From Hyphomicrobiaceae bacterium (GTDB taxonomy: Bacteria > Pseudomonadota > Alphaproteobacteria > Rhizobiales > Xanthobacteraceae), in NCBI GenBank assembly GCA_947472885.1, contig CANJBX010000014.1, forward strand, positions 1 through 64,000: a stretch of 64,000 bases of DNA. The letters run 5' to 3'. Below the pieces are notes generated by a model that saw nothing but the letters and a program-made list of their open reading frames with translations, did not search any database and was not told where the DNA came from. The translations under genes and the position numbers were made by a program. Numbering within the stretch: position 1 is the first letter of the stretch; each line of letters starts with the position of its first letter. Shown one piece after another: positions 40,093 through 56,668 of this stretch.

Positions 40093-40206
40093 CTATCCCT
40101 GCGGTTCGATCCTGGGGCGGTGCGGACGTAGCCGCCCCAGTCCTTGACGTCCTGAATGAGCCGCGCCTGCCCGATTTCCGGGGTGGTGATCCACGGATCG
40201 CCGCCG
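40093..40206 (-). pseudogene. 3' remnant of an array-type TctC gene
   Basis: About 110 bases match the 3' end of the gene at 41905-42867 (compare 41906-42016) with only a few substitutions and a 2-base insertion, GG, near 40114. The remnant still encodes D-P-W-I-T-T-P-E-I-G-Q-A-R-L and then shifts frame before the I-E-P-Q-G end. Similarity stops abruptly at the GGATCGCCGCCG block. It lies 1.7 kb outside the array in a 550-base gene-free gap (39927-40477). Confidence 0.85.
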
Positions 40207-40477: not shown

Positions 40478-41059
40478 TCAAGCTACTTGCTGTCGATTAC
40501 CGTAAGCTTGGCTACTGTGCGTTGTAGTTATGAATGTTTCGATTGCTTGCGTTCTGCGGAACCATTCACCGCGAATACGATCCGCAGCAAATTTGTGGTG
40601 CAGTTCTTTTTCTAACTTTGTCGTGGCTTTAATTGTGGCCAAGACTTTCAGCGTGTGGTGTGACGATGTTTGCAGCGAAGATAGCCGGTCCTCAATCTTG
40701 CTAGCGAAACCAATTTTCACCGCTGAATTGTCTCCTTCCATTCCGATGAAATAAACAACGCCGCTTCTGTTGTGTAGGCGCTTTTGTTTTGGAGACGGCG
40801 GGGGCTGTGTGTCGTGTAGCCAGTCTTCCAACTCTCGAATGGCTGCCGAGAATGGTGTACTCAGCTTTTGCAGTTCACGTTTTGATGGTCGGCTGTCACT
40901 GTACCAATCGACGTGAGCCTGCTTCATTTGCTTTAGCCAGTGAATAGCTTCACCCCGCGAACTCACCATCGCTTTTCGCGAGTCTTGCCGAGCGCGCTCC
41001 TGCAATGCACCGCAATCAATAGCGCCGTTGCAGATATATGGGCCGAACCGTTCCGCCAT
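40478..41059 (-). CDS. GIY-YIG/T5orf172-type protein
   Basis: A 193-residue protein. The N-terminal 105 residues are helical and polar, with no family that I recognise. The C-terminal domain has V-V-Y-F-I-G, V-K-I-G-F-A-S, I-E-D-R-L, K-L-E-K-E-L-H-H-K-F and I-R-G-E-W-F. This is the same T5orf172/MUG113 version of the GIY-YIG fold as in the 27058 gene, but without HEAR-like repeats. Base composition is AT-richer than the neighbours. It lies directly beside gene debris, which points to an unstable or recently acquired segment. Confidence 0.7.
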   Translation of the reverse strand: MAERFGPYICNGAIDCGALQERARQDSRKAMVSSRGEAIHWLKQMKQAHVDWYSDSRPSKRELQKLSTPFSAAIRELEDWLHDTQPPPSPKQKRLHNRSGVVYFIGMEGDNSAVKIGFASKIEDRLSSLQTSSHHTLKVLATIKATTKLEKELHHKFAADRIRGEWFRRTQAIETFITTTHSSQAYGNRQQVA

Positions 41060-41904: not shown

Positions 41905-42867
41905 TTATCCCTGCGGCTCGATCCTGGCGGTGCGGACGTAGCCGCCCCAGTCCTTGACGTCCTGGACAAGCCGCGCCTGCCCGATTTCCGGGGTGGTGAT
42001 CCACGGATCGCCGCCGATGCTGTTGAGGAATTTCTTGCTCTCCGGCGTGGCGTTGATTTCGTTGAACCACTTGTTGATCTGATCGACGATGGGCTTGGGC
42101 GTGCCAGCGGGCACCATGGCGGCGAACCAGCCGAGCAGGTCCATGTCGATGCCCTGTTCCTTCATGGTCGGCAACTCAGGCGCAGCTTCCAGCCGCGCCG
42201 CCGTGCTGAGGCCAAGGATGCGCAGCTTGCCTTCACGCGCCTGCGTCATGGAGTAAACGGGATCGTAAGTCGCGAAGTCGAGTTGCCCGGAAGCCAGATC
42301 GTTCGCGGTGTCGAACGAGGTCCGGTACGGCACTTCAACCGCGTCGATGCCGGCCGCAGCCTTGTAGGCCAGCGCCATCACCTTGCCGGGCGGGTTCGAC
42401 GTGCCGAAGCTCGCCTTGTCCTTCTTCTCCTTCAGGAAGGCCGTCAGTTCCGCGACGTTCTTCCAAGGCTTCTTGACATCGACCGCCAGCATATAGGGCT
42501 GTTTGTTGAGCGTTGCCGCAACCTGGATCGCCTTGGCGACATCGACCGGCGGGTTCTTGAACAGGCTCATGTTGGCGGCAATCGACGAACCGCCCTGAAT
42601 GTAGATCGTGTAGCCGTCGGGCTTGGCCCGCGCGACGTATTCCGTCGCGATGTTGCTGACCGCACCGGGCTTGTTATCGACGACGATGTTGCGGCCGCTC
42701 AAGGTCCGCAGCTTCTCGGCGTAGTAGCGCACGAACAGGTCGGCGCCGGACCCCGCGGGATAGGCGCAGACGACGTGAATATCCTGATTTGGGTAGGATT
42801 GCGCATGGGCCGGTGCCGTCAACGCACATGCAAGCACCAACGCTCCTGCAAACGACCTGATCGTCAC
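41905..42867 (-). CDS. TctC-type binding protein, array member 14 (last)
   Basis: A 320-residue binding protein with a Sec signal (A-H-A-Q-S) and a GTG start at 42867 after GGGGAGG. The first ligand loop is A-Y-P-A-G-S-G-A-D. The second region reads F-A-T-Y-D-P-V-Y and the third T-S-N-P-P-G-K-V-M-A, where Ala replaces the usual Gly-Glu of the M-G-E block. It ends A-R-I-E-P-Q-G. It is the distal gene of the array, 99 bases behind member 13. Its 3' end was the source of, or shares a source with, the remnant at 40093. Confidence 0.9.
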   Translation of the reverse strand: MTIRSFAGALVLACALTAPAHAQSYPNQDIHVVCAYPAGSGADLFVRYYAEKLRTLSGRNIVVDNKPGAVSNIATEYVARAKPDGYTIYIQGGSSIAANMSLFKNPPVDVAKAIQVAATLNKQPYMLAVDVKKPWKNVAELTAFLKEKKDKASFGTSNPPGKVMALAYKAAAGIDAVEVPYRTSFDTANDLASGQLDFATYDPVYSMTQAREGKLRILGLSTAARLEAAPELPTMKEQGIDMDLLGWFAAMVPAGTPKPIVDQINKWFNEINATPESKKFLNSIGGDPWITTPEIGQARLVQDVKDWGGYVRTARIEPQG

Positions 42868-42966
42868 GCGCGCCTCCCCTGATTTTCGCTTCCCGTCCGG
42901 CGCCGGTTTTCCGGCTGCCGTCGTTTCCCGCAGCGTTGACCGCCGCCGGGATTATTCCCGGACAGC

Positions 42967-43962
42967 CTATCCCTGCGGTTCGATCTCCGCGACCTTGACG
43001 TAGTTCTTCCAGTTCTCGATGTCCTTGAGAAAGTAAGCCTGCGCCTCACCGTGCTTCGTGACCCATGGATCGGAGGCGAACTTGCCGAGGAACTGCTTGG
43101 TCTCCTCGGTGCCGACCACCTCTGCGGTCCATTCATTGAGCTGCCGCATGATCGGCTCCGGCGTGCCCGTCGGCACCATCAATCCGAAATAGCCCGTGAG
43201 GTTCATCGGCACGCCGAGTTCGCCCATGGTCGGAATGTCGGGATTGGCGTTCAGCCGCTGATCGGTCGAAACCGAAAGCACACGCAGCCGGCCCTCGCGC
43301 ACCTGCGCCATGGCGAATACGTTATCGACCAGAATGTAATCGACCGTGCCGCTGGCCAGATCGTTGATTGAATCTGCGGCGGTCTTGTACTGGACCTCGA
43401 CGGTCTGCAGCCCAAGCGTCTTCTTGTAGATGGCGCCCATCACCTTGCCGACCGGATTGGTCGTGGCATAGGTGCCCTTTTCCTTCTTCTCCTTCATCGC
43501 CGCGGTAACTTCGGCGACGCTTTTCCACGGCTTGCTGGTGTGCACCGCCATCATGGTCGGCTGCTTGTTGATGGTGCCGACGAGCTGGACGGACTTTGAA
43601 ACATCCATCGTCGGGTTCTTCAAAAGGCTGGCGGCGGCGGCGACGCCACTCGCGCCGTGGATCAGAATGGTGTGACCGTCGGGCTTCGAGCGCACCAGAT
43701 ATTCGGTTGAGATATTGCCGAGCGCGCCGGGCTTGTTCTCGACGAGTGCGGCACGGCCACCGAGCTTCGGGCGCAGCTTTTCCGCCATGTAGCGCACGAT
43801 CACGTCCGCGCCGCTGCCGGCCGGGAACGCGCAGATGAAGTGGACGTCGGCGCTCGGGTACTGCTGCGCCAGCGCGGGCTTGCCCAGGGCGGCGAGCGTG
43901 ACGGCGGCGGCAGCGCCACGCGCGACATCGCGGCGCGAAAGCATTGGCGATTTCGTGTTCAT
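42967..43962 (-). CDS. TctC-type binding protein, array member 13
   Basis: A 331-residue protein whose N-terminus has a twin-arginine-like motif S-R-R-D-V-A-R before a hydrophobic stretch and A-L-A-Q-Q. The loops are A-F-P-A-G-S-G-A-D, then I-L-V-D-N-V-F-A with Asn-Val instead of the common D-P-V, and T-T-N-P-V-G-K-V-M-G-A. E-K-K-E-K-G-T-Y replaces the usual G-D-K-A-S-Y. It ends A-E-I-E-P-Q-G. The D-N-V loop links it to members 5 and 6. GAGGGTG precedes the ATG. Confidence 0.9.
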   Translation of the reverse strand: MNTKSPMLSRRDVARGAAAAVTLAALGKPALAQQYPSADVHFICAFPAGSGADVIVRYMAEKLRPKLGGRAALVENKPGALGNISTEYLVRSKPDGHTILIHGASGVAAAASLLKNPTMDVSKSVQLVGTINKQPTMMAVHTSKPWKSVAEVTAAMKEKKEKGTYATTNPVGKVMGAIYKKTLGLQTVEVQYKTAADSINDLASGTVDYILVDNVFAMAQVREGRLRVLSVSTDQRLNANPDIPTMGELGVPMNLTGYFGLMVPTGTPEPIMRQLNEWTAEVVGTEETKQFLGKFASDPWVTKHGEAQAYFLKDIENWKNYVKVAEIEPQG

Positions 43963-44080
43963 GTTGACACCCTCGGTTTCCTGTCCCTGCCGCCCGCCCC
44001 GGTTTTACCGAAGCCTTGTTTCGTTTTTTATTTTTGGGTCGTTGCGCGGCGGCACCGATGCGCCGCCGCGCATATTCAGA

Positions 44081-45067
44081 TTACTGCTGCTCGATCTTCG
44101 CAGCCTTGACGTAACCTTCCCAGGCGTTCTGGTCCTTGACCATCTGGGCCTGACCTTCTTCCGGCGTGGTGATCCACGGATCGCCGCCGAACTTGTTGAG
44201 GAAGATGCGGGTTTCCTCGGTCGCCTCGATTTCGTTGAACCACTTGTTGAGCTGATCGACGATGGGGCGCGGCGTTGCCGCCGGCACCATGGCGGAGAAC
44301 CATCCGAACAGTTCGATACCGGGGATGCCTTCCTCGGTCATGGTCGGCAGGTCGGGCAGCGCCTTCATGCGCTTCCCGGTCGAAACCGCGAGCATGCGGA
44401 AGCGGCCTTCGCGCGTCTGCACGATGGCGACCACGGGGTCATACATGCCGTAGTCGATGGCGCCGCTGGCAAAGTCGTTCAGCGCATCGACGGCGGTGCG
44501 GTACGGCACGTCCACGGCCTTGACGCCGGTGGCGTTCTTGTAGAGTTCGCCCATCACCTTGCCGGTGGTGTTGGATTCCGCGTAGCTCGCCTTTTCGCCC
44601 TTGGCGATCATGCCCGCGGTAAGCTCTTTCATGTTCTTGTACGGGCTGTTGGCCGGTACGACGACCATGAACGGCTGCTGGTTCAGCGTGGCAACCACCT
44701 GCAGGTCCTTGGACGGGTTGATCGGCGGCTTCTTGAACAGCCAGAAATTCGCCGCCGTCGAGTTACCGGCATGAATGTGGATCGTGTAGCCGTCCGGTTT
44801 GGCGCGCGCGGTGTATTCCGCGGCGATGTTGCCCGCAGCGCCGGTCTTGTTCTCGACGACCACCGGCTTGCCGGCCTTCTTGCGCAATTCCTCGGCGAAG
44901 TAGCGCACCAGCACGTCCGCGCCGCTGCCGGCCGGGAATGCGCAGATAATCTGAATATCCTGCGCCGGGTATGCCTGTGCCGATGCTCCGGCCGGAGCAA
45001 ACGCCAGCGCGGCGGCGAGCGCGGCCGGTCCAACCAGCAGCGACCGGCGGGTGGTGTTGATCTTCAT
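44081..45067 (-). CDS. TctC-type binding protein, array member 12
   Basis: A 328-residue protein starting at ATG 45067 after GGAGAT; an in-frame TTG at 45073 is less likely. The signal has T-R-R-S-L-L-V and ends S-A-Q-A. The loops are A-F-P-A-G-S-G-A-D, Y-G-M-Y-D-P-V-V and E-S-N-T-T-G-K-V-M-G-E. It ends A-K-I-E-Q-Q, one residue shorter than most members. A GC-rich inverted repeat (about 44045-44073) lies just beyond its stop, but the T-run is on the wrong side for a minus-strand terminator. Confidence 0.9.
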   Translation of the reverse strand: MKINTTRRSLLVGPAALAAALAFAPAGASAQAYPAQDIQIICAFPAGSGADVLVRYFAEELRKKAGKPVVVENKTGAAGNIAAEYTARAKPDGYTIHIHAGNSTAANFWLFKKPPINPSKDLQVVATLNQQPFMVVVPANSPYKNMKELTAGMIAKGEKASYAESNTTGKVMGELYKNATGVKAVDVPYRTAVDALNDFASGAIDYGMYDPVVAIVQTREGRFRMLAVSTGKRMKALPDLPTMTEEGIPGIELFGWFSAMVPAATPRPIVDQLNKWFNEIEATEETRIFLNKFGGDPWITTPEEGQAQMVKDQNAWEGYVKAAKIEQQ

Positions 45068-45139
45068 CTTCAAAGAATCTCCGTTGAATTTAACAAGCGT
45101 TCGATAGCAGGCGAAGCCGCCACGTCAACTTTTGTGGCT

Positions 45140-46141
45140 TCAGCTTTGCGGTTTCAGCTTGGCGATACGCACATACTCTTCCCAGTCCTTGATGTCTTTC
45201 AGAAGGCGGGCCTGGCCTTCGTCCGGCGTCGAAACCCATGGATCGCCGCCGAAATTGGTCAGGAACTTCGCAGTCTCCGGGTTTTGGTGAATGGTCTTGA
45301 ACCAGCCGTTGATCTTGTCGACGATGGGCCGTGGCGTTTCCGACGGCACCATGACCGAGAACCAGCCGACGAGGTCCATCTTGTATCCGGCCTCGCTCAT
45401 GGTCGGGATTTCAGGCGCGGCCTTCAGCCGGTCATTGGATGCGACCGCGAGAATGCGTAGCCGGCCTTCGCGGGCCTGCGACAGCGCAAACACCGGATCG
45501 TGGCAGCCGAAATCGACCGTGCCATTCGCCATGTCGTTGAGCGTGTCCTGCGCCATCTTGTAGTTGACTTCGACGCTCTGGAGCCTGGCCAGCTCCTTAT
45601 ACATCGCGCACATCACCACGCCGGAATTAGCGGCGGTGCCGTAGCTCGCCTTGTCGCCGCGCTCCTTGAGGTGCTTGGTCAGTTCGGCAATGTTCTTCCA
45701 CGGCTTCGACGCATCGACCACCAGCATGAACGCCTGCTTGTTGATGGTGGCGGCAATCTGGATCTGCTTGCTGGCGTCAACCTTGTTGTTCTTGACCAGG
45801 TGATAGTTCGACGCCAGCGTGTTGCCGGCATGAATGAACATCGTGTAGCCGTCGGGCTTCGAGCGCACGACATACTCGGTGGCGATGTTGCCGCCCGCGC
45901 CGGCCTTGTTCTCGACCAGCACCGCCTTTTCCGTGAACGGGCGTATCCGCTCGGCAAAGAACCGCACCAGCACATCGGCGCCGCTGCCGGGCGGAAATGC
46001 GCTGGCGATGTGGATGTCCTTGCTCGGATAGGGCGGCTCTTTTGCCTGGGCGCTGGCGGCGCCCGTGGAAAGCCCGAACGCGAGCGACGCCGACAACAGC
46101 GCCAACCCGTAGGAAGCTTTTTTTCGCGCGGTCATTTTCAT
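45140..46141 (-). CDS. TctC-type binding protein, array member 11
   Basis: A 333-residue protein with a Sec signal (A-S-A-Q-A). The start at 46141 lies 10 bases after the stop of member 10; an upstream in-frame start would overlap it. The loops are A-F-P-P-G-S-G-A-D, F-G-C-H-D-P-V-F and T-A-A-N-S-G-V-V-M-C-A, where Cys replaces the Gly of M-G. The end is A-K-L-K-P-Q-S, the most divergent terminus in the array. The tight spacing suggests cotranscription with member 10. Confidence 0.9.
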   Translation of the reverse strand: MKMTARKKASYGLALLSASLAFGLSTGAASAQAKEPPYPSKDIHIASAFPPGSGADVLVRFFAERIRPFTEKAVLVENKAGAGGNIATEYVVRSKPDGYTMFIHAGNTLASNYHLVKNNKVDASKQIQIAATINKQAFMLVVDASKPWKNIAELTKHLKERGDKASYGTAANSGVVMCAMYKELARLQSVEVNYKMAQDTLNDMANGTVDFGCHDPVFALSQAREGRLRILAVASNDRLKAAPEIPTMSEAGYKMDLVGWFSVMVPSETPRPIVDKINGWFKTIHQNPETAKFLTNFGGDPWVSTPDEGQARLLKDIKDWEEYVRIAKLKPQS

Positions 46142-46151
46142 GGTCGTGTTC

Positions 46152-47114
46152 TCAACCCTGCGGTTCAATCTTGGCTAATCTTACGTAATCGGCCCAATCT
46201 TTGTAGTCCTTTAGGTATGCAGCGCGTGCCTCGTCCCGCGTCGTCACCCATGGGTCATAGCCTGTCCCTGCGAAGAATTGCCGCGCCTCCCCGGTTCCGG
46301 AGATTTCAGAAATGACGGCATGGAGCTGGTCGAGGATGGATTTCGGAGTTCCCTGCGGGGCAAACACTGCCCACCACGCCGGCAGATCGATCTTGTGGCC
46401 CGCCTCCGTCAGGGTCGGAAAATCGGCCATCGCAACCGAACGCTGCGCGGTCGAGACCGCCAGCACGCGGAACCGGCCGGCTTTCGCCATGCCGAAACCC
46501 GCGGCAGCGTCGATGAACGCGAAATCGAGGTTCCCGGCGCTGAGATCGTTGATCCAGTCCGACGAGGTCTTGTAGCCCACCTCGACCGCCTTGGCCCCGA
46601 TGCTGTCGCGGTACAGCGCACCGGCGACGCGCGCGGTCGGGAATGCCGTGCCGTAACTCGCCTTGTCGCCCTTTGCCTTCACCGCCGCCGTCAGGTCGGC
46701 GACCTTCTGGTAGGGCGAATTTGCCGCAACCACCATCAGGATCGGCGCGCGCGCCATCGACGCCACGACCTCGAATGTCCGGACATCGACCGGCGGATTC
46801 TTGAACAGGTAGGCCGTCGCGACCAGCGAACTGCCACCCGTCATATATAAGGTATGGCCGTCCGGCTTCGCCTTGGCGACGTATTCGGTGGCGATGTTGC
46901 CGACCGCGCCGGGCTTGTTCTCGACCAGCACGGTCTTGCCGAGTTTCACCTTCAGCTTGTCGGCGAGAAAGCGCGCGGTGACGTCGGGGCCGCTGCCCGC
47001 GGCGAAGCCGACGACGAGATGAACGTCCTGGCCCGGATAGGTCTGCGCCTGCGCAAGCGAAGCCGCAGCAGCGAGGATTGCGGCGGCCACGATACCCATG
47101 CTGCTGCGCTTCAT
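46152..47114 (-). CDS. TctC-type binding protein, array member 10 (most divergent)
   Basis: A 320-residue protein with a Sec signal (A-Q-A-Q-T). It differs from all other members at every loop: G-F-A-A-G-S-G-P-D, then F-A-F-I-D-A-A-A-G in place of D-P-V-F-A, and T-A-F-P-T-A-R-V-A-G-A. M-A-R-A-P-I-L replaces the N-x-Q-P-F/A-M block. It ends A-K-I-E-P-Q-G. The gaps to both neighbours are only 7 and 10 bases, so members 9, 10 and 11 are probably on one transcript. It most likely binds a different ligand. Confidence 0.9.
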   Translation of the reverse strand: MKRSSMGIVAAAILAAAASLAQAQTYPGQDVHLVVGFAAGSGPDVTARFLADKLKVKLGKTVLVENKPGAVGNIATEYVAKAKPDGHTLYMTGGSSLVATAYLFKNPPVDVRTFEVVASMARAPILMVVAANSPYQKVADLTAAVKAKGDKASYGTAFPTARVAGALYRDSIGAKAVEVGYKTSSDWINDLSAGNLDFAFIDAAAGFGMAKAGRFRVLAVSTAQRSVAMADFPTLTEAGHKIDLPAWWAVFAPQGTPKSILDQLHAVISEISGTGEARQFFAGTGYDPWVTTRDEARAAYLKDYKDWADYVRLAKIEPQG

Positions 47115-47121
47115 CGCCTGA

Positions 47122-48099
47122 TCATCCCTGCGGTTCGAGCTTGGCGAGTTGCAGATATTCCTTCCAGTCGACCATTTCCTTTTCCAGTTGGGCCTGCGCT
47201 TCCGCCGGCTTCATCAGATAGGGATCACTGGCGAAGCCGTTGAGGAATTTCTTGGTCTCTTCCATCGCCGTGATCTGGTCGAACCATGCGTTCAACTGAT
47301 CGACGATCGGCTTCGGCGTCTTCGACGGCACCATCGCGGCCCACCACAGATCAAGCTTCATCGGAATGCCGCCCTCGGTCATGGTCGGCAGTTCGGGCGC
47401 AGCGGACAGCCGGTTGGTGGTGCTGACGCCGAGCACGCGCAGCTTGCCCTGCTTGTGCTGCGCGGTCGCGAACACCGGCTCCATCAGCGCGTAATCGACC
47501 GAACCGCTCATCATGTCGTTCATGATGTCGGCAGATGTCTTGTAGTTGACATCGACAGCGGCGAGTCCCGCCTTCGCCTTGTAGATCGCGCCCATGACGA
47601 TGCTCGGCGGCGCGGAGGTGGCGTAGGTTGCCTTGTCGCCCTTCGCCTTCATCGCGGCGGTGAGTTCGGCCAGCGTCTTCCACGGCTTGCTGGCGTCAAC
47701 CACCAGCATGAAGGCCTGCTTGTTGATGCCGGCGAAAACCTGGAACGCATTAACGTTCTCGACCGGCGGACGCTTGTAGAGATACATGTTGGCCGCAAGG
47801 CCGGTGCCGCCATGCACCAGGACCGTGTAACCGTCCGGCTTCGACTTCGCGACATATTCAATGGCGATATTCGCCCCCGCACCGGGACGATTCTCGACCA
47901 GCACCGTGCGGCCGCTGAGCGCTTTGAGGCGCTCGCCGTAGTGCCGCACGATGGCATCCGCGCCGGAGCCGGCCGGAAACCCGCAGATCAGGTGGATGTC
48001 GTTCGCCGGATACTGCTGCGCCCACGCGCTGGTTCCCGCACCTGCAACACCGAAGGCCAATGCGCCTGCGGTCAGGCCCAACATCTCGCGTCTTTTCAT
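47122..48099 (-). CDS. TctC-type binding protein, array member 9
   Basis: A 325-residue protein starting at 48099 after AGGAGAGAG. The signal has K-R-R-E-M-L-G and ends A-W-A-Q-Q. The loops are G-F-P-A-G-S-G-A-D, Y-A-L-M-E-P-V-F (Glu instead of Asp) and T-S-A-P-P-S-I-V-M-G-A. It shares the M-E-P loop and S-I-V-M-G-A block with member 8, marking a recent pair. It ends A-K-L-E-P-Q-G. It is 7 bases ahead of member 10. Confidence 0.9.
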   Translation of the reverse strand: MKRREMLGLTAGALAFGVAGAGTSAWAQQYPANDIHLICGFPAGSGADAIVRHYGERLKALSGRTVLVENRPGAGANIAIEYVAKSKPDGYTVLVHGGTGLAANMYLYKRPPVENVNAFQVFAGINKQAFMLVVDASKPWKTLAELTAAMKAKGDKATYATSAPPSIVMGAIYKAKAGLAAVDVNYKTSADIMNDMMSGSVDYALMEPVFATAQHKQGKLRVLGVSTTNRLSAAPELPTMTEGGIPMKLDLWWAAMVPSKTPKPIVDQLNAWFDQITAMEETKKFLNGFASDPYLMKPAEAQAQLEKEMVDWKEYLQLAKLEPQG

Positions 48100-48143
48100 T
48101 ACTCTCTCTCCTGTTTCATTCCAGACGCGGCGACCGCCGCGCC

Positions 48144-49121
48144 CTATCCCTGTGGTTCCATCTTGGCGAGGCGCATGTATTCCGCCCAGGCCTTCTCGTC
48201 CCGGTTCACCATCGCCTGCGCCTCCTCCGGCGTGACGATGAATGGATCGCTGGCGAAGCCGTTGAGGAACTTCTTGGTTTCTTCCATCGACGTGATCTGG
48301 TCGAACCACTTATTGAGCTGCTGCGCAATCGGCCGCGGCGTTGCCGCCGGCACCATGCCCGACCACCACAGGTTCAGGCTCAAGCCCGCGATGCCCGATT
48401 CCAGAAACGTCGGAATTTCCGGCGCAGCGCTCAGGCGCTTCTCGCTCGATACCGCCAGCACGCGCAACCTTCCTTGCCGGTGCTGGCCCATGGCGAATAT
48501 CGGCTCCATCATGGCGTAGTCGATGTTGCCGCCTAGCATGTCGTTCATCATATCGGAGGACTGGCGGTAATTCACTTCAACCGATTGCAGACCGGCGCCT
48601 GCCTTGTACATCGCGCCCATCACGATACTGGCCGGCGCGCCGGTGCCGTAGCTAGCCTTGTTCCCCTTGGCCTTCACGGCCTCCGTCACCTCGGCAACTG
48701 TCTTCCACGGCCTGTTGGCATCGACCACCATCATGAAGGCCTGACGATTGATCGATGCAAAAACCTGGAAGTCATTGACCGAGGACACCGGCGGCTTCTT
48801 GAACAGGTGCATGTTGGAGGCAAGGTTGTAGCCGCCGTTCACCAGAACCGTGTAGCCATCGGGTTTCGATCTCGCGACATATTCCATCGCGATGTTGCTG
48901 CCTGCGCCGGGCTTGTTCTCGACGATCACCGTGCGGCCGGCAATGGCGCGCAGCTTCTCGGCGTAATAGCGGACAATCGTGTCGGCGCCCGTACCTGCCG
49001 GATAACCGCAGATCAGATGGATGTCCTGACTGGGGTATTGCTGCGCACTGGCGCCGCCTGCCAACAATGGCGCGGCCAACAGAATCATTCCAGCGAGACG
49101 TATCAATGAGCGACGTTGCAT
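48144..49121 (-). CDS. TctC-type binding protein, array member 8
   Basis: A 325-residue protein with AAGAGGAG before the ATG. The signal has Q-R-R-S-L-I-R, a weak twin-arginine match, ending A-S-A-Q-Q. The loops are G-Y-P-A-G-T-G-A-D (Thr for Ser), Y-A-M-M-E-P-I-F and T-G-A-P-A-S-I-V-M-G-A. It is closest to member 9 by loop sequence and by the F-A-S-D-P near the C-terminus. It ends A-K-M-E-P-Q-G. Confidence 0.9.
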   Translation of the reverse strand: MQRRSLIRLAGMILLAAPLLAGGASAQQYPSQDIHLICGYPAGTGADTIVRYYAEKLRAIAGRTVIVENKPGAGSNIAMEYVARSKPDGYTVLVNGGYNLASNMHLFKKPPVSSVNDFQVFASINRQAFMMVVDANRPWKTVAEVTEAVKAKGNKASYGTGAPASIVMGAMYKAGAGLQSVEVNYRQSSDMMNDMLGGNIDYAMMEPIFAMGQHRQGRLRVLAVSSEKRLSAAPEIPTFLESGIAGLSLNLWWSGMVPAATPRPIAQQLNKWFDQITSMEETKKFLNGFASDPFIVTPEEAQAMVNRDEKAWAEYMRLAKMEPQG

Positions 49122-49188
49122 GGCTTCGTACTCCTCTTGTCGTTGCGCTTCCTCTCCGAAAACCGGGTCTTGTGCCCGGAGATCGCCG

Positions 49189-50187
49189 TTATCCCTGAGG
49201 TTCTATCTTCGCGAGGCGCGCGTAGTCGCCCCAGTCCTTGATGTCCTTCAGGAGACGCGCCTGCGCCTCGTCCACCGACGCCGCCCAGGGATCGCCGCCG
49301 AACCTGTTGAGGAACGCCTTGGTCTCATCGGTGGTGATGACCTGCCTGAACCATGCGTTGATCTGCTCGACGACGGGCCGCGGCGTACCGGCCGGCACCA
49401 TGGCGGAGAACCAGCCCATCAGGTCCATGGGAATGCCGGCTTCCGTCATGGTCGGAAGTTCAGGCACCGCAGACATGCGTTGCGCGGTCGAGACGGCGAG
49501 CATACGGACACGGCCTTCGCGCGCCTGCGACATCGAGAATACCGGATCGTACATGCCGTAATCGATGGCACCGCTGAGGAGATCGTTGAGCGAGTCCACG
49601 CCGACACGGAAAATCACCTCGACCGCCTTCACGCCGGTCTTCTGCTTGTAGATTTCGCCCATCACCGTGCCGGTCGAAGCCGACGTGGCATAGGTCGCCT
49701 TGTCGCCCTTTGCTTTCAGGAACTCGGTGACTTCCGCCACCGTCTTCCACGGCTTCCTGGCATCGACCACCATCATGAACGGCTGGCGGTTGATGGTCGC
49801 CGCCATCTGCACGTCCCTGGTGGCGTCGATGGGCGGCTTCTTGAACAGATGCATGTTCGCCGCGACCGCGCTCGCCGCATGGACGAACACCGTGTAGCCG
49901 TCGGGCTTCGAGCGCATCACATATTCCGCCGCGACATTACCCGCCGCGCCGAAACGGTTTTCGACGAGGATCGTGCGGCCGACAACCGGACGCAGCTTCT
50001 CGGCGACGTACCGCACGATGGTGTCGGAACCGCTGCCGGCCGGAAACGCGCAGACAAAGTGAATATCCTGCGATGGATATTGCTGCGCCAGCGCAGGCAT
50101 CGGAAACAGGCCCGTAGCCGGCAGGACCGCCGCACCAAGCGTTGTCTTGATAAATGTTCTGCGCGAGATATCGAATGTCGGCTTCAT
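49189..50187 (-). CDS. TctC-type binding protein, array member 7
   Basis: A 332-residue protein with AGAAGGACG before the ATG. The signal has S-R-R-T-F-I-K, an excellent twin-arginine motif, followed by T-T-L-G-A-A and A-L-A-Q-Q. The loops are A-F-P-A-G-S-G-S-D, Y-G-M-Y-D-P-V-F and T-S-A-S-T-G-T-V-M-G-E. Its first 38 residues are nearly the same as those of member 6, but the ligand loops differ. It ends A-K-I-E-P-Q-G. Confidence 0.92.
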   Translation of the reverse strand: MKPTFDISRRTFIKTTLGAAVLPATGLFPMPALAQQYPSQDIHFVCAFPAGSGSDTIVRYVAEKLRPVVGRTILVENRFGAAGNVAAEYVMRSKPDGYTVFVHAASAVAANMHLFKKPPIDATRDVQMAATINRQPFMMVVDARKPWKTVAEVTEFLKAKGDKATYATSASTGTVMGEIYKQKTGVKAVEVIFRVGVDSLNDLLSGAIDYGMYDPVFSMSQAREGRVRMLAVSTAQRMSAVPELPTMTEAGIPMDLMGWFSAMVPAGTPRPVVEQINAWFRQVITTDETKAFLNRFGGDPWAASVDEAQARLLKDIKDWGDYARLAKIEPQG

Positions 50188-50226
50188 CGAAGAACGTCCT
50201 TCTCGCTTGAAAAGGTCAGACCTGGA

Positions 50227-51225
50227 TCAACCCTGCTGCTCGATCTTGGCGACCTTGACGAATTCGCGCCACTGCTCGATTTCCTTGAGGAAGAACGCCC
50301 GCGCCTCCTCCGGGCTGTTGATCCATGGATCGCTGGCGATGCTTGCAAGGAACGCCTTGCCCTCATCGCTCGAAACGACTTCGCTGATCCACTTGCCGAG
50401 CTGCTCGACTACCGGCTTCGGCGTACCAACCGGCACAAGGCCCGCCCACCAGCCGCGCAGGTCCATCGCATAACCGAGTTCGGTCATGGTCGGATAATCC
50501 GGCGCCGCCTTCATGCGCTGGCCCGTGCTGACCGCGAGAATCCGCATCCGCCCAGCGCGCGCCTGAGCGACCGCGAAGACGTTGTCGGGAATCGCGTAGT
50601 CGATGTTGCCGCTGGCGAGGTCGTTGAGATAATCGGCGGAGGAGCGATAAGGAACATCGACCGCCGCCAATCCGGCGCGCTCCTTGTACATGGCGCCGAC
50701 GACTTTCGCGGTGGGGTTCGACGTCGCGTAGCTCGCCTTTTCGCCCTTTGCCTTCATCGCCGCAGTCAATTCGGCCATGGTCTTGATCGGCCCGTCGGCG
50801 CGCACGCCGATCATCAGCGGCTGCTTGTTGATGGTGCCGGCGATTTGCAGCTGCTTGCCGACATCGACCGTCGGATTCTTCGAGATGGCCTGACTGGCGG
50901 CGAGCGCACTCGCGCCGGTGATATAGACCGTGTAGCCGTCGGGTTTCGAGCGTGCGACATATTCCGTCGCGATATTGCCGATCGCACCCACCTTGTTCTC
51001 GACGATGACCTGGCGGCCGGACAGCACCCGTATCTTCTCGCTGAAGAAACGCACGATGATATCCGCGCCGCTGCCGGCCGCGAATCCGCAGATGAAGTGA
51101 ATGTCCTGCGACGGATACTGCTGCGCCAGCGCGGGCATCGGAAACAGGCCTGCGGCCGGCATGGCCGCAGCGCCGAGCGTGGTCTTGAGCAGCGTCCTGC
51201 GCGAGATATCTAGTGACGACTTCAT
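50227..51225 (-). CDS. TctC-type binding protein, array member 6
   Basis: A 332-residue protein with AAGGATAA before the ATG. The signal has S-R-R-T-L-L-K-T-T-L-G-A-A, a twin-arginine type close to members 5 and 7. The loops are G-F-A-A-G-S-G-A-D, Y-A-I-P-D-N-V-F and T-S-N-P-T-A-K-V-V-G-A, matching member 5 in each. It ends A-K-I-E-Q-Q-G. It lies 39 and 41 bases from its neighbours with no terminator, so cotranscription with members 5 and 7 is likely. Confidence 0.92.
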   Translation of the reverse strand: MKSSLDISRRTLLKTTLGAAAMPAAGLFPMPALAQQYPSQDIHFICGFAAGSGADIIVRFFSEKIRVLSGRQVIVENKVGAIGNIATEYVARSKPDGYTVYITGASALAASQAISKNPTVDVGKQLQIAGTINKQPLMIGVRADGPIKTMAELTAAMKAKGEKASYATSNPTAKVVGAMYKERAGLAAVDVPYRSSADYLNDLASGNIDYAIPDNVFAVAQARAGRMRILAVSTGQRMKAAPDYPTMTELGYAMDLRGWWAGLVPVGTPKPVVEQLGKWISEVVSSDEGKAFLASIASDPWINSPEEARAFFLKEIEQWREFVKVAKIEQQG

Positions 51226-51266
51226 CCGGCAATTATCCTTATTTCGCGCAGGTATTCAGATTACGG

Positions 51267-52265
51267 TCAGCCTTGCTGCTCGATATTGGCGAGCTTCACG
51301 AACTCACCCCATTTGTTGATGTCCTTGATCAGGTAGGCCTGCCCCTCTTCCGGCGTGGAAATCCACGGATCGCTGGCAACGCCCGCAAGGAATGTCTTGG
51401 TATCCTCGGTCTGGAGAACCTGTTTGAACCAGGCGTTGAGCTGATCGACAATCGGGCGCGGCGTCGCGGAAGGCACCAGCGCCGCCCACCAGCTTCGCAC
51501 GTCGAGGGAATAGCCCTGCTCCGTGAGCGTCGGAAGTTCCGGCGTGGATTTCATGCGGGTGTCGGAACCGACTCCGAGGATCTTGATGCGCCCGGCCTTG
51601 GCGGCCTGCATGGCGCCGACGTTATCGATCAGGATGAAATCGAGATTGCCGGATGAGAGGTCGTTGAAGAAATCCGCGGCGGTCTTGTAGGGCACTTCGA
51701 GCGCGCCCACGCCGGCTTCTTTCTTGTAAAGCGCGCCCAGCACTTTTGTGGTCGGGTTGGTGAATCCGTAGCTCGCCTTGTCGCCCTTCAGCTTCAATGC
51801 TGCGGTCAGCTCCTTCGCGGAGTTGAACGGCGAGTCGGCGCGAACGGCGAGCATCATGGTTGCGTTGTAGATAGTCGCCGCCACCTGCAAAGCCTTGCCG
51901 GCATCGACCGTCGGATTCTTGAACAGGTGCATGTTCGTTGCAACGGCGTTCGCGCCGGTTACATAAACCGTGTAACCATCCGGCTTGGCGCGCGCGACAT
52001 ACTCGGTCGCGATGTTGCCGATAGCGCCCGGCTTGTTCTCGACAATGATGGTCTTGCCCGAGATCGGCTGGATCTTGTTGGCGAAGTGGCGGACGATTAC
52101 ATCCGCGCCGCTCCCTGCGGCGAAGCCACAGATGAAATGGATGTCCTGGGCCGGATAGGCCTGCGCCAGCGCGGGCATCGGAAAGAGGCTCGCCGCCGGT
52201 ATGGCGGCGGCGCCAAGCGAGGTCTGCAGAAGCGTTCTGCGCGAAATCCTGAATTCGTTTGCCAT
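51267..52265 (-). CDS. TctC-type binding protein, array member 5
   Basis: A 332-residue protein starting at 52265 after GGAAGGAAG. The signal has S-R-R-T-L-L-Q-T-S-L-G-A-A, near-identical in layout to members 6 and 7. The loops are G-F-A-A-G-S-G-A-D, F-I-L-I-D-N-V-G and F-T-N-P-T-T-K-V-L-G-A. T-I-Y-N-A-T-M replaces the N-x-Q-P-F-M block seen elsewhere. It ends A-N-I-E-Q-Q-G. With member 6 it forms the clearest recent duplicate pair. Confidence 0.92.
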   Translation of the reverse strand: MANEFRISRRTLLQTSLGAAAIPAASLFPMPALAQAYPAQDIHFICGFAAGSGADVIVRHFANKIQPISGKTIIVENKPGAIGNIATEYVARAKPDGYTVYVTGANAVATNMHLFKNPTVDAGKALQVAATIYNATMMLAVRADSPFNSAKELTAALKLKGDKASYGFTNPTTKVLGALYKKEAGVGALEVPYKTAADFFNDLSSGNLDFILIDNVGAMQAAKAGRIKILGVGSDTRMKSTPELPTLTEQGYSLDVRSWWAALVPSATPRPIVDQLNAWFKQVLQTEDTKTFLAGVASDPWISTPEEGQAYLIKDINKWGEFVKLANIEQQG

Positions 52266-52355
52266 CGCTGGACTTCCTTCCACGTCTAATAAGTCCCGGC
52301 AGCGGCACGGCAGCATCATTGCCGCCGCCCGCTGGCCGGAAAGCGTTTGCCGCGA

Positions 52356-53339
52356 TCAGCCTTGCGGCTGGATCTTGGCGAGCTTCACGTAACCCGCCCA
52401 GTCAGGAACGTCCCTGACCAGACGCGCCTGCGCGGCTTCAGGCGTTTCGATCAGCGGATCGCCGCCGAATTGCGGGAGGAACTTCCGCGAGTCTTCGGAC
52501 TTGCCGACTTCGGTGAACCATTTGTTGATCTGATCGACGACCGGCTTGGGCGTGCCGGAAGGCACCATGGCCGCCCACCAGCCAGTGAGGTTCATCTTGA
52601 CGCCCTGTTCGCTCATGGTCGGCAGATCGCCGGTGGCTTTCAGCCGCTGGCCGCTCGAGATGCCGAGGATGCGCCAGTCGCCCTTGTTGTGCATGCTCAG
52701 CGCCTGCACCGGATCGGCGGAGCCGAAATCGAGCGCGCCGCTGACCATGTCGTTGACCATATCCTGGCCGGTCCGGTAGTCGACCTGGACTGCCTTGATG
52801 CCGGTCTGGTCCTTGTAGATTTCGGCAAGGATGGTCGAGGACGGATTGGCGGTGCCGTAGCTCGCCTTGTCGCCCTTCACCTTCATCGCCGCTGTCAGAT
52901 CCGCCAGCGTCTTGTGGGGTTTGCTGGCATGAACAACGATCATGTAGGGCTGCTGGTTGATGGTGCCGGCAACCTGGATCTGCTTGGTCACGTCCACCGG
53001 CGGCACCTTGGACAGGCTCATGCTCGAAGCAACGCCGCTGCCGGCGTGAACGAACACGGTGTAGCCATCGGGCTTGGAACGCGCGACGTATTCCAGTGCG
53101 ATATTGCCGCCTGCGCCAGCACGGTTCTCGACGATAATGTTCTTACCGGTCAGCGGACGTACTTTTTCGGCGAAGAACCGCACCAGCACGTCGGCGCCGC
53201 TGCCGGGCGGGAACGCGCAGATGAAGTGGATGTCCTGCGCCGGATATTGTTGTGCGCTGACGCCGGTCGGCGACACCGCGAATGCTGCCGCAAGCGCCAG
53301 TGAACCGGCGCAACGCAGCAACGAAGAAAGCATCTTCAT
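52356..53339 (-). CDS. TctC-type binding protein, array member 4
   Basis: A 327-residue protein starting at 53339 after AGAGGGGAAA. It has a Sec signal ending V-S-A-Q-Q. The loops are A-F-P-P-G-S-G-A-D, F-G-S-A-D-P-V-Q (Gln instead of the aromatic) and T-A-N-P-S-S-T-I-L-A-E. M-H-N-K-G-D-W-R-I-L replaces the usual Q-R-E-G-R-L-R-I-L. It ends A-K-I-Q-P-Q-G. The P-P-G loop joins it to members 1-3 and 11. Confidence 0.9.
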   Translation of the reverse strand: MKMLSSLLRCAGSLALAAAFAVSPTGVSAQQYPAQDIHFICAFPPGSGADVLVRFFAEKVRPLTGKNIIVENRAGAGGNIALEYVARSKPDGYTVFVHAGSGVASSMSLSKVPPVDVTKQIQVAGTINQQPYMIVVHASKPHKTLADLTAAMKVKGDKASYGTANPSSTILAEIYKDQTGIKAVQVDYRTGQDMVNDMVSGALDFGSADPVQALSMHNKGDWRILGISSGQRLKATGDLPTMSEQGVKMNLTGWWAAMVPSGTPKPVVDQINKWFTEVGKSEDSRKFLPQFGGDPLIETPEAAQARLVRDVPDWAGYVKLAKIQPQG

Positions 53340-53432
53340 TGGTTTCCCCTCTGCACTTTTTTGCCTAAGTTTTCGGTAAACGCTTCGTTGCAGTCGCCGG
53401 CGGCGCGTCATTGCCATCACCGGCGATCATTC

Positions 53433-54410
53433 TCATTGCGGCTCGATCTTCGCGAGCTTCACGTATTCGCGCCAATCCTTCTCGTCCTTGATGAGCAAGG
53501 CCTGCCCCTCTTCCGGCGTGGAGACGAACGGATCGCCGCCGAACTGGTTGAGGAACTTCTTGGTCTCGTCCATGGCGAGGATTTGCTTGAGGTAATCGTT
53601 GAGCTGGGTAATCACCGGCTTGGGCGTCGCCGAAGGCGCGATGTAGGCCCACCACGAGGTGAGGTCCATGCCCTTCACGCCGGATTCGTCCATCGTCGGC
53701 ACATCCGGGATCGCCGCCAGGCGCTTGCCCGAACTGTGCGCCAGAATGCGCAGGCGGCCTTCGCGCTGCTGCGCGAGCGAGAACACCGGATCGTGCATGC
53801 CGTAGTCGAGCTTGCCATCCAGAATTTCATTGAGCGAGCCGGCCGAGTCCTTGTAGCGGACTTCGACCGCCTTCACGCCGGTGATCGCCTTGTACATTTC
53901 ACCCATCACGATGCCGGACGGCGCGGCCGTGGCGTAGGACGCCTTCTCGCCCTTGGCCTTCAGCACGGCGGTGATATCGGCGACGTTCTTGTAAGGACCC
54001 TTGGCATCCACCACCATCATGAAGGCCTGGCGGTTGATGGTGCCCGCGATCTGGAATGCCTTGACGACATCGACCGGCGGATTTTTCTGCAGGTGCATGC
54101 CCGCGGCGGTGCCGCTGCCCGCATTGATCAACAGCGTGTTGCCGTCCGGCTTCGACTTCGCGACATATTCGACGGCGATCGAACCCGACGCGCCGACCTT
54201 GTTCTCGACCAGCACGTTGCGGCCCGAGATGGCGCGCGTCTTCTCGGCGAAGTAGCGCGTGATGACATCCGCGCCGCTGCCCGGCGGAAACCCGGTAACG
54301 AAATGGAGGTCCTCTTTGGACGCCGTCTGCGCGCCGGCAGCGAATGGCACGGCGCAGATCGCCGCAGCCAGCAACGCACGGCGTGACACACGATAAGAGG
54401 TGAACTTCAT
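53433..54410 (-). CDS. TctC-type binding protein, array member 3
   Basis: A 325-residue protein starting at 54410 after GGGAGGGTG. The signal has V-S-R-R-A-L-L-A-A. The usual A-Q-x-Y-P-x-Q-D-I-H junction is A-Q-T-A-S-K-E-D-L-H here. The loops are G-F-P-P-G-S-G-A-D, Y-G-M-H-D-P-V-F and T-A-A-P-S-G-I-V-M-G-E. S-W-W-A-Y-I-A-P replaces the W-x-A-M-V-P block. It ends A-K-I-E-P-Q. A strong terminator lies 105 bases upstream of it, so it needs its own promoter in the 208-base gap. Confidence 0.9.
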   Translation of the reverse strand: MKFTSYRVSRRALLAAAICAVPFAAGAQTASKEDLHFVTGFPPGSGADVITRYFAEKTRAISGRNVLVENKVGASGSIAVEYVAKSKPDGNTLLINAGSGTAAGMHLQKNPPVDVVKAFQIAGTINRQAFMMVVDAKGPYKNVADITAVLKAKGEKASYATAAPSGIVMGEMYKAITGVKAVEVRYKDSAGSLNEILDGKLDYGMHDPVFSLAQQREGRLRILAHSSGKRLAAIPDVPTMDESGVKGMDLTSWWAYIAPSATPKPVITQLNDYLKQILAMDETKKFLNQFGGDPFVSTPEEGQALLIKDEKDWREYVKLAKIEPQ

Positions 54411-54514
54411 GGCACCCTCCCTGATCAGTTCTTTTTTGCGTCCCGGCCGGAACGTTGCCAGCGCTGATGCGATGGACAAAGCAACGGCGGGCGCTTGTTT
54501 TGAATTATGGCACA

Positions 54515-54548
54515 TAAAAAAGGCGCGGTGACCTGCGTCACCGCGCCT
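54515..54548 (-). terminator. intrinsic terminator between array members 2 and 3
   Basis: A perfect 12-base-pair stem (54521-54532 with 54537-54548) with a 4-base loop; on the minus strand it runs straight into TTTTTT. It lies about 70 bases after the stop of member 2 and would end transcription coming from tctBA and members 1-2. Confidence 0.88.
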
Positions 54549-54618
54549 CTATGGTCGCTGGAATTAGCCTCGGAAGTCAACCAACCGAGGTTATTCCGTG
54601 CATTGCCCACTGGCCCAC

Positions 54619-55599
54619 TTAGCCCTGGGGCGTGATCTTGGCGACTTCGATGTACTTCTTCCAGCTCTCGACATCCTTGAGCAGGCGCGCTTGCGCCTGA
54701 TCCGGCGTTTCGATCAGCGGATCGCCGCCGAACTTGTTGAGGAACGCCTTGGTGTCGGCCGAACCGACAATTTCAACGAACCACTTGTTGAGCTGTTCGA
54801 TGATCGGCTTCGGAGTTCCCTGCGGAACGATGACGCCCCACCAGCCGGTGAGATCCATCGGAACGCCCTGCTCCGCCATGGTAGGCAGGTCCGGCGTGGC
54901 GTCGAGACGCTTGCCGGTCGAGACGCCGAGAATGCGCAGGCGGCCTTCACGCTGCTGGGCAAGCGCAAACACCGGATCGTGCATGCCGTAGTCCACCGAG
55001 CCGCTGGCCATGTCGTTCAGTCCGTCCGGCGCGCTCTTGTAGGAGACTTCCACGGCCTTCACGCCGGTCGCCACCTTGTAGAGTTCGCCCATCACGCTGC
55101 CGGTCGGGGCAGCCGAACCATAGGTCGCCTTGTCGCCCTTCTTCTTCATCGCTTCCGTCACTTCGGCGACGGTCTTGTAGGGCGACTTGGTATCGACCAG
55201 CATCATGAAGGGCTGGCGGTTGATCGTCGCCGCCATCTGGAATGCCTTGTTGACGTCCGGGAATACCGGCGTCTTGAACAGCGAGACGTTGGCCGCGATG
55301 GCGCTGCCGGCGTGAATGAAGACCGTATAGCCGTCAGGCTTGGCGCGACCGACGTATTCCTGCGCAATGTTACCGCCGGCGCCTGCCCTGTTTTCAACGA
55401 TGATGTTCCGGCCGGAAGCCGCGCGCAGCTTTTCGCTGAAGTAACGCACCAGCACGTCCGCACCGCTACCGGGCGGGAAGGCGCAGATCACATGAATATC
55501 CTGGTTGGGGTAACCCTGCGCTTGCACGCCTGCGGGCACCATTGCCAGCACGGCCGCTGCAACCATCGACGCACCGGCGCCGAACCACTTGAACTTCAT
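54619..55599 (-). CDS. TctC-type binding protein, array member 2
   Basis: A 326-residue protein starting at 55599 after AAGGAGAGA. It has a Sec signal ending V-Q-A-Q-G. The loops are A-F-P-P-G-S-G-A-D, Y-G-M-H-D-P-V-F and S-A-A-P-T-G-S-V-M-G-E. V-F-P-D-V-N-K-A replaces the P-P-V-D-V-x-K block. It ends A-K-I-T-P-Q-G. It is bracketed by intrinsic terminators, so it can be expressed as a single-gene unit. Confidence 0.92.
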   Translation of the reverse strand: MKFKWFGAGASMVAAAVLAMVPAGVQAQGYPNQDIHVICAFPPGSGADVLVRYFSEKLRAASGRNIIVENRAGAGGNIAQEYVGRAKPDGYTVFIHAGSAIAANVSLFKTPVFPDVNKAFQMAATINRQPFMMLVDTKSPYKTVAEVTEAMKKKGDKATYGSAAPTGSVMGELYKVATGVKAVEVSYKSAPDGLNDMASGSVDYGMHDPVFALAQQREGRLRILGVSTGKRLDATPDLPTMAEQGVPMDLTGWWGVIVPQGTPKPIIEQLNKWFVEIVGSADTKAFLNKFGGDPLIETPDQAQARLLKDVESWKKYIEVAKITPQG

Positions 55600-55628
55600 T
55601 TCGTCTCTCCTTCGATGAGCCGTTTTTA

Positions 55629-55665
55629 CAAAAAGAAAAACGCAGCGGCGGTGTGCCGCTGCGTT
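55629..55665 (-). terminator. intrinsic terminator between array members 1 and 2
   Basis: An 11-base-pair stem (55639-55649 with 55655-55665) is followed on the minus strand by TTTTTCTTTTTG. It starts 14 bases after the stop of member 1. Confidence 0.88.
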
Positions 55666-55678
55666 ACGCAAATTTTAC

Positions 55679-56668
55679 TTAGCCTTGTGGCTCGATTTTC
55701 GAGATCTTCACGAACTCGCGCCACAATTCGATTTCCTTCAGGAACAGGTCCTGCCCCTTCGCCGAGTCCAGCAGCAACTGGTCGCCGCCGAACTTGGCGA
55801 GGAACTCGCGGGTCTCGTCCGAGCCGACGACCTGCATGAACCACTTGTTGATCTGGTCGATGGCAGGCTGCGGCGTGCCGGCCGGCACCATCGCCGCCCA
55901 CCAGCCCATCATGTTCAGCTCGGAGACGCCCTGTTCCTTCAGCGTCGGAATATCCGGATTGGCCTTGAGCCGCTCCGCGGTCGACACTGCGAGGATGCGC
56001 AGGCGGCCTTCGCGCTGCTGCGCCATGGCATAGACCGGATCGTGCACCGAGTAATCGAGCACGCCGGAAAGCTGCTCGTTGAGCGAGTCGACCGCATTCT
56101 TGTAGGTCACTTCGCGGGCCTTGATGCCGGCGCCGAGCTTGTAGACCTCGCCGACCACGGTGCCGAACGGCGCTGCGGTTGCATAGCTCGCCTTGTCGCC
56201 CTTGGCCTTCATTGCCGCGGTCAGATCAGCGAGCGTCTTGTGCGGGGACTTCGCATCGACCAGCACCATGAACGGCTGGCGATTGATCGTCGCGGCAACC
56301 TGGATGGTCTTGCCGACATCGACCGGGGGATTCTTGAACAGGCTCATGCTGGCGGCGACGCCGGAGGCGCCATGCACCAGCACGGTGTAGCCGTCAGGCT
56401 TCGCGCGCGCGACGTACTCGATGCCGATGTTGCCGCCGGCACCCGAGCGATTCTCGATGATGACGTTCTTGCCGGTCAGCGGCCGGACTTTTTCAGCGAA
56501 GTAACGCACCAGCACGTCGGCGCCGCTGCCGGGCGGGAACACGCAGATGAAGTGAATGTCCTGGTTGGGATACTGCTGGGCGCGTGCGCCCGGAGAAACC
56601 GCCAGCGCCGCCGCCAGAATTGCAGCAGGTGCCAGGCGTCGCATCAGCGATTGCATTGCAATGCTCAT
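55679..56668 (-). CDS. TctC-type binding protein, array member 1 (next to tctA)
   Basis: A 329-residue protein starting at 56668 after GGGAGGG. It has a Sec signal ending A-R-A-Q-Q. The loops are V-F-P-P-G-S-G-A-D, Y-S-V-H-D-P-V-Y and T-A-A-P-F-G-T-V-V-G-E. The usual D-P-W/L near the C-terminus is F-G-G-D-Q-L-L. It ends S-K-I-E-P-Q-G. It follows tctA after 113 bases and is followed by an intrinsic terminator. By position it is the likely original partner of this TctAB pair. Confidence 0.93.
   Translation of the reverse strand: MSIAMQSLMRRLAPAAILAAALAVSPGARAQQYPNQDIHFICVFPPGSGADVLVRYFAEKVRPLTGKNVIIENRSGAGGNIGIEYVARAKPDGYTVLVHGASGVAASMSLFKNPPVDVGKTIQVAATINRQPFMVLVDAKSPHKTLADLTAAMKAKGDKASYATAAPFGTVVGEVYKLGAGIKAREVTYKNAVDSLNEQLSGVLDYSVHDPVYAMAQQREGRLRILAVSTAERLKANPDIPTLKEQGVSELNMMGWWAAMVPAGTPQPAIDQINKWFMQVVGSDETREFLAKFGGDQLLLDSAKGQDLFLKEIELWREFVKISKIEPQG

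Follow-up and report, generated by a model that had tools for sequence, protein, structure and literature searches.

Why do fourteen receptor genes stand behind a single permease, and do the receptors recognize different compounds? This question is raised by a 64,000-nucleotide stretch from Hyphomicrobiaceae bacterium (GenBank assembly GCA_947472885.1, contig CANJBX010000014.1, positions 1 to 64,000 of the forward strand), here called the window. On its minus strand tctB and tctA are followed by fourteen tandem TctC genes, numbered from M1 (nearest tctA) to M14 (farthest, ending at 41905), which encode the receptors of a tripartite tricarboxylate transporter (TTT). An initial annotation had described these receptors as a distinct subfamily of Bug proteins and had predicted several ligand classes from a triplet in their second loop. 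Our analysis leans towards a different account, in which one old TctBA permease would be served by many receptors whose acid ligands differ and are perhaps aromatic.

One permease and fourteen receptors

The source genome is 3.88 Mb in 128 contigs and the window is part of contig 14. The genes that together identify a TTT system were found in one direction between 58810 and 41905: tctB, the small membrane subunit and first gene of the cluster (58286-58810; PF07331, 50.5 bits), the permease gene tctA (56782-58284; PF01970, 529.6 bits) and tctC (PF03401). All fourteen members scored above the 27-bit cut-off of the PF03401 profile (128.9-172.2 bits), their matches spanning 41956-56509 on the minus strand, and two isolated TctC matches lie at 6355 and 30719. 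The gaps within the array are 7 to 208 bases long and pairwise protein identity among the members is 41-64%. In the whole genome there were 130 TctC matches (fragments counted) vs 8 TctA matches, one of which is a fragment; such an excess, with TctC receptors in the hundreds beside a few permeases, has been familiar from the work on Bordetella onwards.

Pocket residues in orthologues and paralogues

Pocket columns were numbered after the terephthalate receptor TphC, with the ligand contacts taken from section 10 of PMC8556258. If ligands differ among the members and are fixed in each of them, pocket residues are expected to agree between orthologues and to differ between paralogues. This contrast was calculated for nine pocket columns (86, 150, 154, 155, 156, 178, 179, 194 and 242) in three sets: six members of the window array for which orthologues occur in two other genera (14 rows), an array of seven genes from two metagenome-assembled genomes (MAGs; 14 rows) and a three-gene array from two Rhizobiaceae (6 rows).

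In the window array the nine columns differed less than the remaining positions between orthologues (0.100 vs 0.245) and more between paralogues (0.550 vs 0.433), giving a between/within ratio of 5.0 vs 1.7 elsewhere (p = 0.001). The ratio was also raised in the seven-gene array (3.6 vs 2.1, p = 0.04) and in the three-gene array (33 vs 2.7, p = 0.014), and it was not raised for seven anchor columns in any of the three arrays (p = 0.20, 0.63 and 1.0); none of these p values was corrected for the number of arrays (three), of column sets (three) or of statistics (several). With a conservation-matched control, in which 6 pocket columns were left, the contrast in the window array was again significant (p = 0.0035). 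Since this was the case in the window array alone, the specificity signal appears good for the window array and no more than suggestive for the two others. The fourteen members carry fourteen different strings at the nine columns. The prediction of several ligand classes was thus retained in one part, in that pocket positions behave as if specificity differs (6/14 members tested), and given up in another, the use of the triplet split as class marker.

Positions 86, 150-156, 178-179, 194 and 242 are probably better specificity candidates than the triplet. According to section 12 of PMC8556258, terephthalate binding by TphC was abolished in the P86T/Q150S mutant, stabilization by all seven ligands was abolished in T155A, and terephthalate was still bound by T242A. 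Of the nine columns, 86/150 and 155 at the least therefore decide binding in a relative; TphC provides experimental backing for these positions and less for 242.

A remodelled pocket shared by 26 genes

In a tree of 122 full-length TctC proteins of the genome, the fourteen array members fell into a 26-row clade together with 12 dispersed genes (Shimodaira-Hasegawa-like approximate likelihood ratio test, SH-aLRT, 96), and in a careful 38-row tree this clade had a support of 99/97. Within the latter tree the sisters of M12 and M11 were genes on contigs 3 and 1, respectively (each pair 100/100). The array as a clade of its own was rejected: the 12 dispersed genes are interleaved with the members, and a single array clade failed the approximately unbiased (AU) test both with 14 rows (p-AU = 9.9e-57) and without M10 (p-AU = 1.6e-5). 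The array is therefore not the distinct subfamily that it had been taken for, and its sequence marks are not special to it, being shared by the dispersed genes. The sister pairs and the rejected clade indicate that genes have moved into or out of the array within this genome.

Four pocket marks were counted in the 26 clade members and the 95 other TctC proteins of the genome, with one more row of <280 residues left out. An S/T followed by G at TphC 34-35 was found in 26/26 vs 13/95, a two-residue deletion in the distal-site loop (TphC 150-156) in 26/26 vs 21/95, absence of the pincer Gly178 in 26/26 vs 28/95, and D/E at the position of Asn197 in 24/26 vs 29/95. All four marks occurred together in 9 of the 95, each of these being among the 12 outgroup rows, the nearest group outside the clade. 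By alignment, the 26-gene clade thus appears to have a common remodelled pocket, with an S/T-G loop 1, a shortened distal loop, no Gly178 and mostly an acid at 197. In the solved Bug proteins compared by eye (TphC, TBP, BugD, BugE, AdpC, Bug27, 4x9t and 25hk), residue 197 is N, Q, T or S and residue 178 is G; 25hk apparently has a shortened distal loop too, so that this deletion by itself is not unique.

Loop 1 reads F/Y-P/A-P/A-G-S/T-G-A/S/P-D in 14/14 aligned members, which agrees with the F-P-x-G-S-G-A-D motif first noted for the fourteen tandem genes. The Bug signature of this loop, P-F-x-A-G-G-x-x-D, has been called "almost ubiquitous" in the family and is therefore typical and not defining (PMC5812351). 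The array departs from it: the first G and the D are retained in all fourteen members and the second G is replaced by S/T in all fourteen, this G being absent also from 24/95 other TctC of the genome. The C-terminal tail, described as I-E-P-Q-G or similar in nearly all members, is IEPQG in five and a near variant in the remaining nine. A PQG-type tail was found with a strict pattern in 14/14 array members, 9/12 dispersed clade genes and 10/95 others, and with a looser pattern in 11, 10 and 12, respectively. Both isolated binding proteins are without the loop-1, loop-2 and tail features of the array, and were rightly set apart from it.

The model of M7, one of the fourteen members, has the two-lobed Bug fold. 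Eleven Bug/TctC rows matched it at Z 31.3-37.9, the best being Bug27 (Z 37.9) and AdpC (Z 37.3), and the next family followed at 16.4.

Fourteen short fragments had been dropped before the 122-row tree was built, including the halves of two TAG-broken genes, C23 and C39, whose scores are 450 and 426 bits and which are probable members of the 26-gene clade. Altogether five TctC genes have one in-frame TAG each, at five different positions (L024 (C23), L025 (C39), L144 (C17), L151 (C26) and, in the relative G016, L105). Reassignment of TAG was ruled out, since TAG terminates 32 of the 122 full-length TctC genes, and the five interruptions therefore look like young nonsense mutations. Two other TctC genes of the source genome (L119 and L120, contig 33) lie in pieces in different frames.

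Age and spread of the array

Related loci were fetched with two peptide patterns, of which one was loop 1, so loop-1 counts among these loci are biased and those from the source genome are not; the best 80 of 372 loci were kept, 77 of them distinct. Among 41 genomes (the source and 40 relatives), two relatives, G016 and G004, scored >320 bits, the next reaching 313. In G004, which belongs to another genus, a TctA 88.7% identical to that of the window is followed by counterparts of M1, M3, M12 and M11. On a short contig of G016 the end of TctA is accompanied by one further member and by counterparts of M1 and M12, and another contig holds seven full members plus one cut by the contig end. The dispersed sisters of M11 and M12 in the source genome are about as close, and orthology there is therefore one-to-many. 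Because M1, M3, M11 and M12 have their closest relatives in an array of another genus, where these follow such a similar TctA, the array and its permease appear to be old. Recent amplification was rejected as the origin of the fourteen genes, the paralogues being only 41-64% identical and several members having counterparts in other genera.

A TctA match was present in 30 of the 77 related loci kept; as judged by coordinates, it lies immediately upstream and in the same orientation in 29 of these, and the receptors behind it number 1, 2, 3, 4 or 7, contig ends permitting. Matches were found in 6/119 genomes of the family (the source included); in 397 sampled genomes of the order, with five candidates scored per genome, no other genome was found at E 1e-105. 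The seven-gene receptor array (L061, L063, and L062 + L077) follows tctBA with an identical gene order in two MAGs and is seemingly split over two contigs in a third; a molybdenum hydroxylase gene adjoins it in L061 and L063 and a UbiD gene in L063. The source genome has a second array on contig 3 (approximately 8084-13314; L116 and L193), in which three TctC genes precede tctB-tctA. Its TctA is 65.6% identical to the window TctA and its TctC proteins come from the nearest group outside the array clade.

Proposed ligand recognition

Receptors of the Bug family characteristically bind a carboxylate via two bridging waters. We propose that each receptor of the array would use the pincer typical of Bug proteins to catch a small organic acid of its own, the loop-1 backbone holding one carboxylate. 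The far part of the ligand would be read by the shortened loop (TphC 150-156), by the pincer residues 178-179 and by positions 86, 194 and 242, and gene order suggests that all or most receptors would hand their ligand to the same TctBA. At position 155 there is T or S in 9/14 members, and five are without a hydroxyl there; the hydroxyl of S156 is kept in only 4/14, and at T242 the members have G, L, S or A, with T/S in only 2/14. More tentatively, the acid at 197 together with the hydroxyls lost at 156 and 242 in most members would favour ligands that have one carboxylate and, at the opposite end, a hydrogen-bond donor. Candidates would be hydroxylated aromatic or heteroaromatic acids, at least for the five members also without a hydroxyl at 155.

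The genes around the array and its relatives are compatible with aromatic ligands. Upstream of tctB, at 1.6 kb and in the same direction, there is an HpaD-like gene (ring-cleaving dioxygenase; 291.5 bits vs a cut-off of 321.4), and a second upstream gene scores well below cut-off both for HsaA (260.3 vs 450) and for p-hydroxyphenylacetate hydroxylase (217.1 vs 650). In 5/9 related tctBA loci a UbiD, a molybdenum hydroxylase or a LigXa-type Rieske oxygenase was found nearby (20 neighbour proteins examined; a raw count without background). Seven of the 12 dispersed clade members lie near genes for a VanA-type Rieske protein and a PF02441 flavoprotein (presumably of the UbiX type), FAA hydrolase, CoA transferases, thiolase, hydantoinase, GMC oxidoreductase and amidohydrolase. 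A link of TTT genes with lignin breakdown has been proposed from Amazon River data (PMC7597016).

Several points weigh against this account. Only 6/14 members entered the orthologue test, M4, M5, M7-M10, M13 and M14 being outside it, and the conservation-matched control was non-significant in the seven-gene array (p = 0.12, 4 columns) and in the three-gene array (p = 0.24, 9 columns). When all 16 pocket columns were taken together, they showed no greater variability between paralogues than the other positions did (0.360 vs 0.441). The pocket positions come from alignment to TphC and not from coordinates, and an acid at 197 is not confined to the clade, as 29 of the 95 other TctC carry one too. 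The one-carboxylate part appears to be further weakened by T155, which TphC needs and which is still T/S in 9/14 members, and by T242, which is lost in 12 members and was dispensable for terephthalate in TphC. As to the neighbours, 4/9 related tctBA loci had no such aromatic gene among those examined, 5/12 dispersed clade members adjoin housekeeping or unrelated genes, and all aromatic-gene neighbour counts are raw, without a background rate.

Alternative explanations

The receptors might instead have their ligands wholly or largely in common, with the array kept for dosage or differently regulated expression and the differences being drift. Such an explanation would fit the nearly constant loop 1 and pincer anchor, whose ratio was not raised in the window (p = 0.20), the variability of the whole pocket, equally not raised, and the two of three matched controls that were non-significant. 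Graded expression is suggested by two terminator-like hairpins with a T run on the minus strand, between M1 and M2 (55639-55665, z = -3.69) and between M2 and M3 (54519-54550, z = -6.03), which fold better than 200/200 shuffles and could lower the output of M3-M14. Other gaps also fold well; the terminator scan gave 16 sites vs 18.3 in shuffles, so that the total was not raised, and the promoter scan 2 vs 4.5. However, dosage needs no proteins as different as these, with a pocket conserved between genera, and we regard the explanation as possible and rather improbable.

Many members might also serve other permeases or sensor proteins, with the array as a store from which genes have left. The genome has far more TctC than TctA matches, twelve clade members are dispersed, some of them as sisters of single array members, and a sensory role of a Bug protein has been mentioned for BctDECBA of Bordetella (PMC5994714). 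A similar permease is nevertheless found near these receptors again and again, in most cases directly upstream, and we consider this alternative unlikely.

A similarly low probability is assigned to the receptors binding dicarboxylates or phthalate-type diacids. Most Bugs with solved complexes that were looked at bind diacids, aspartate and glutamate counted, and the TphC mutants at 155 and 242 are compatible with diacid binding, since the former position is mostly retained and the latter is dispensable. Against diacids stand the replacement of N197 by D/E in 14/14 members, the loss of the hydroxyls at 242 and 156 in most of them and the five members without one at 155.

That D-P-V, D-N-V, E-P-V/I and D-A-A define four ligand classes, as the initial annotation had it, we hold to be very unlikely, since D-N tracks one or two clades and D-P-V lumps eight different pockets. 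The split itself was found as listed. D-P-V occurs in M1 (55679-56668, tail IEPQG), M2 (54619-55599, ITPQG), M3 (53433-54410, IEPQ), M4 (52356-53339, IQPQG; start codon picked by eye), M7 (49189-50187, IEPQG; the only modelled member, pLDDT 95.8), M11 (45140-46141, LKPQS), M12 (44081-45073, IEQQ) and M14 (41905-42867, IEPQG). D-N-V occurs in M5 (51267-52265, IEQQG), M6 (50227-51225, IEQQG) and M13 (42967-43962, IEPQG), E-P-I in M8 (48144-49121, MEPQG), E-P-V in M9 (47122-48099, LEPQG; start codon picked by eye) and D-A-A in M10, the most divergent receptor (46152-47114, IEPQG); all are on the minus strand and match PF03401.

Aligned to TphC, both loops border the pocket, where the initial annotation had them contact the ligand, and the first triplet residue falls on N197, which contacts terephthalate via water (PMC8556258). 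This residue is, however, acidic in all fourteen members. The second residue (P, N or A) falls on I198, one residue past that contact, and I198 is missing from the contacts given in section 10 of PMC8556258. In the M7 model the D is residue 180 and lies between a strand (176-179) and a helix (181-189; M7 numbering), so the P/N/A residue opens this helix. Proline is common at the first position of a helix. On a 96-row tree built without the triplet columns the second residue needs 6 changes and the first 2. In one tree all 11 D-N rows lie within one 12-row clade (SH-aLRT 94), the exception being a D-P gene of the source genome, L017. In the own-genome trees M13 groups with L016 and stands away from M5/M6, so that two origins of D-N are possible. 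Over ten pocket positions, no two of the eight D-P-V members have the same string. The sister proteins M8 and M9, which combine E197 with L242, a second pocket position, do look like a real pocket class. For the account with many receptors for different acids, the nine pocket positions replace the triplet as the thing to test.

This account could be extended to a plug-in transporter, in which one TctBA would work with the fourteen array receptors and perhaps with the dispersed ones, each for a different aromatic or hydroxylated acid, with pockets that hold diacids poorly and a supply graded by the hairpins. We regard the extended version as doubtful.

Other features of the locus

Downstream of the array, a 113-bp copy of the 3' end of M14 (41906-42016), 94.7% identical, lies at 40094-40206 on the minus strand, 1.8 kb away, and a T5orf172/MUG113 gene (40478-41059) sits between M14 and this copy. 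The copy is perhaps the scar of a lost fifteenth gene, that is a relic of the array, or of an insertion. Farther downstream on the array strand (37711-39944) are two genes with a 4-base overlap and without NCBIfam matches, the second encoding an Amidohydro_2 protein. A home-made test on third codon positions gave weak evidence of gene conversion, with a single candidate tract (M10-M11, codons 81-95, p = 0.013). At the 5' ends of M5 (52265), M6 (51225) and M7 (50187) the neighbouring genes carry a similar leader that looks, by eye, like a twin-arginine leader. DNA identity between M6 and M7 is 81% in the leader and 66% in the mature part, yet M7 branches apart from M5/M6; leaders have perhaps been exchanged among the three genes.

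Comparison with known systems

Tandem TctC arrays are already known, and the window holds a TTT system with an enlarged receptor set. The longest published array found in the open-licence literature on tandem tctC arrays, which the fourteen receptors behind one tctBA exceed, is the nine-gene TTT receptor array of Rhodoplanes sp. Z2-YC6860 (Rosa et al. 2018, PMC5994714). Like the window array, it is a tandem TctC array in a TctC-rich alphaproteobacterial genome, some of its members are closest to genes elsewhere and identity between members is low (mostly <50%); a tctBA upstream of the nine genes is not stated in the passages of PMC5994714 used here. No description of the receptor clade was found in the literature searched.

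TphC, which works with TpiBA in terephthalate uptake, shares the fold and pincer but has N197, G178, T242 and a longer 150-156 loop (PMC8556258), each of which is altered in the majority or the whole of the array clade. Bug27 of Bordetella pertussis, the best structural match of the M7 model, and its close paralogue Bug69 are comparable ligand by ligand; both are orphan receptors that bind quinolinate, and the distal loop of Bug27 has, by eye, the length of that of TphC (PMC11452294). The tctBA loci of Neorhizobium, Rhizobium and Xaviernesmea (L081, L084 and others) have a TctA about 75% identical and tandem receptors of the same profile group, three as against fourteen; no characterization of them was met, no search by name having been made.

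Use of many receptors by one permease is still put as a possibility in PMC5994714. A cluster of one permease and fourteen receptors, some of which have counterparts in other genera, makes this question directly testable, and the alterations at the distal site point to a first choice of compounds for screening. If the account is true, one pump would serve many different acids via differing receptor pockets.

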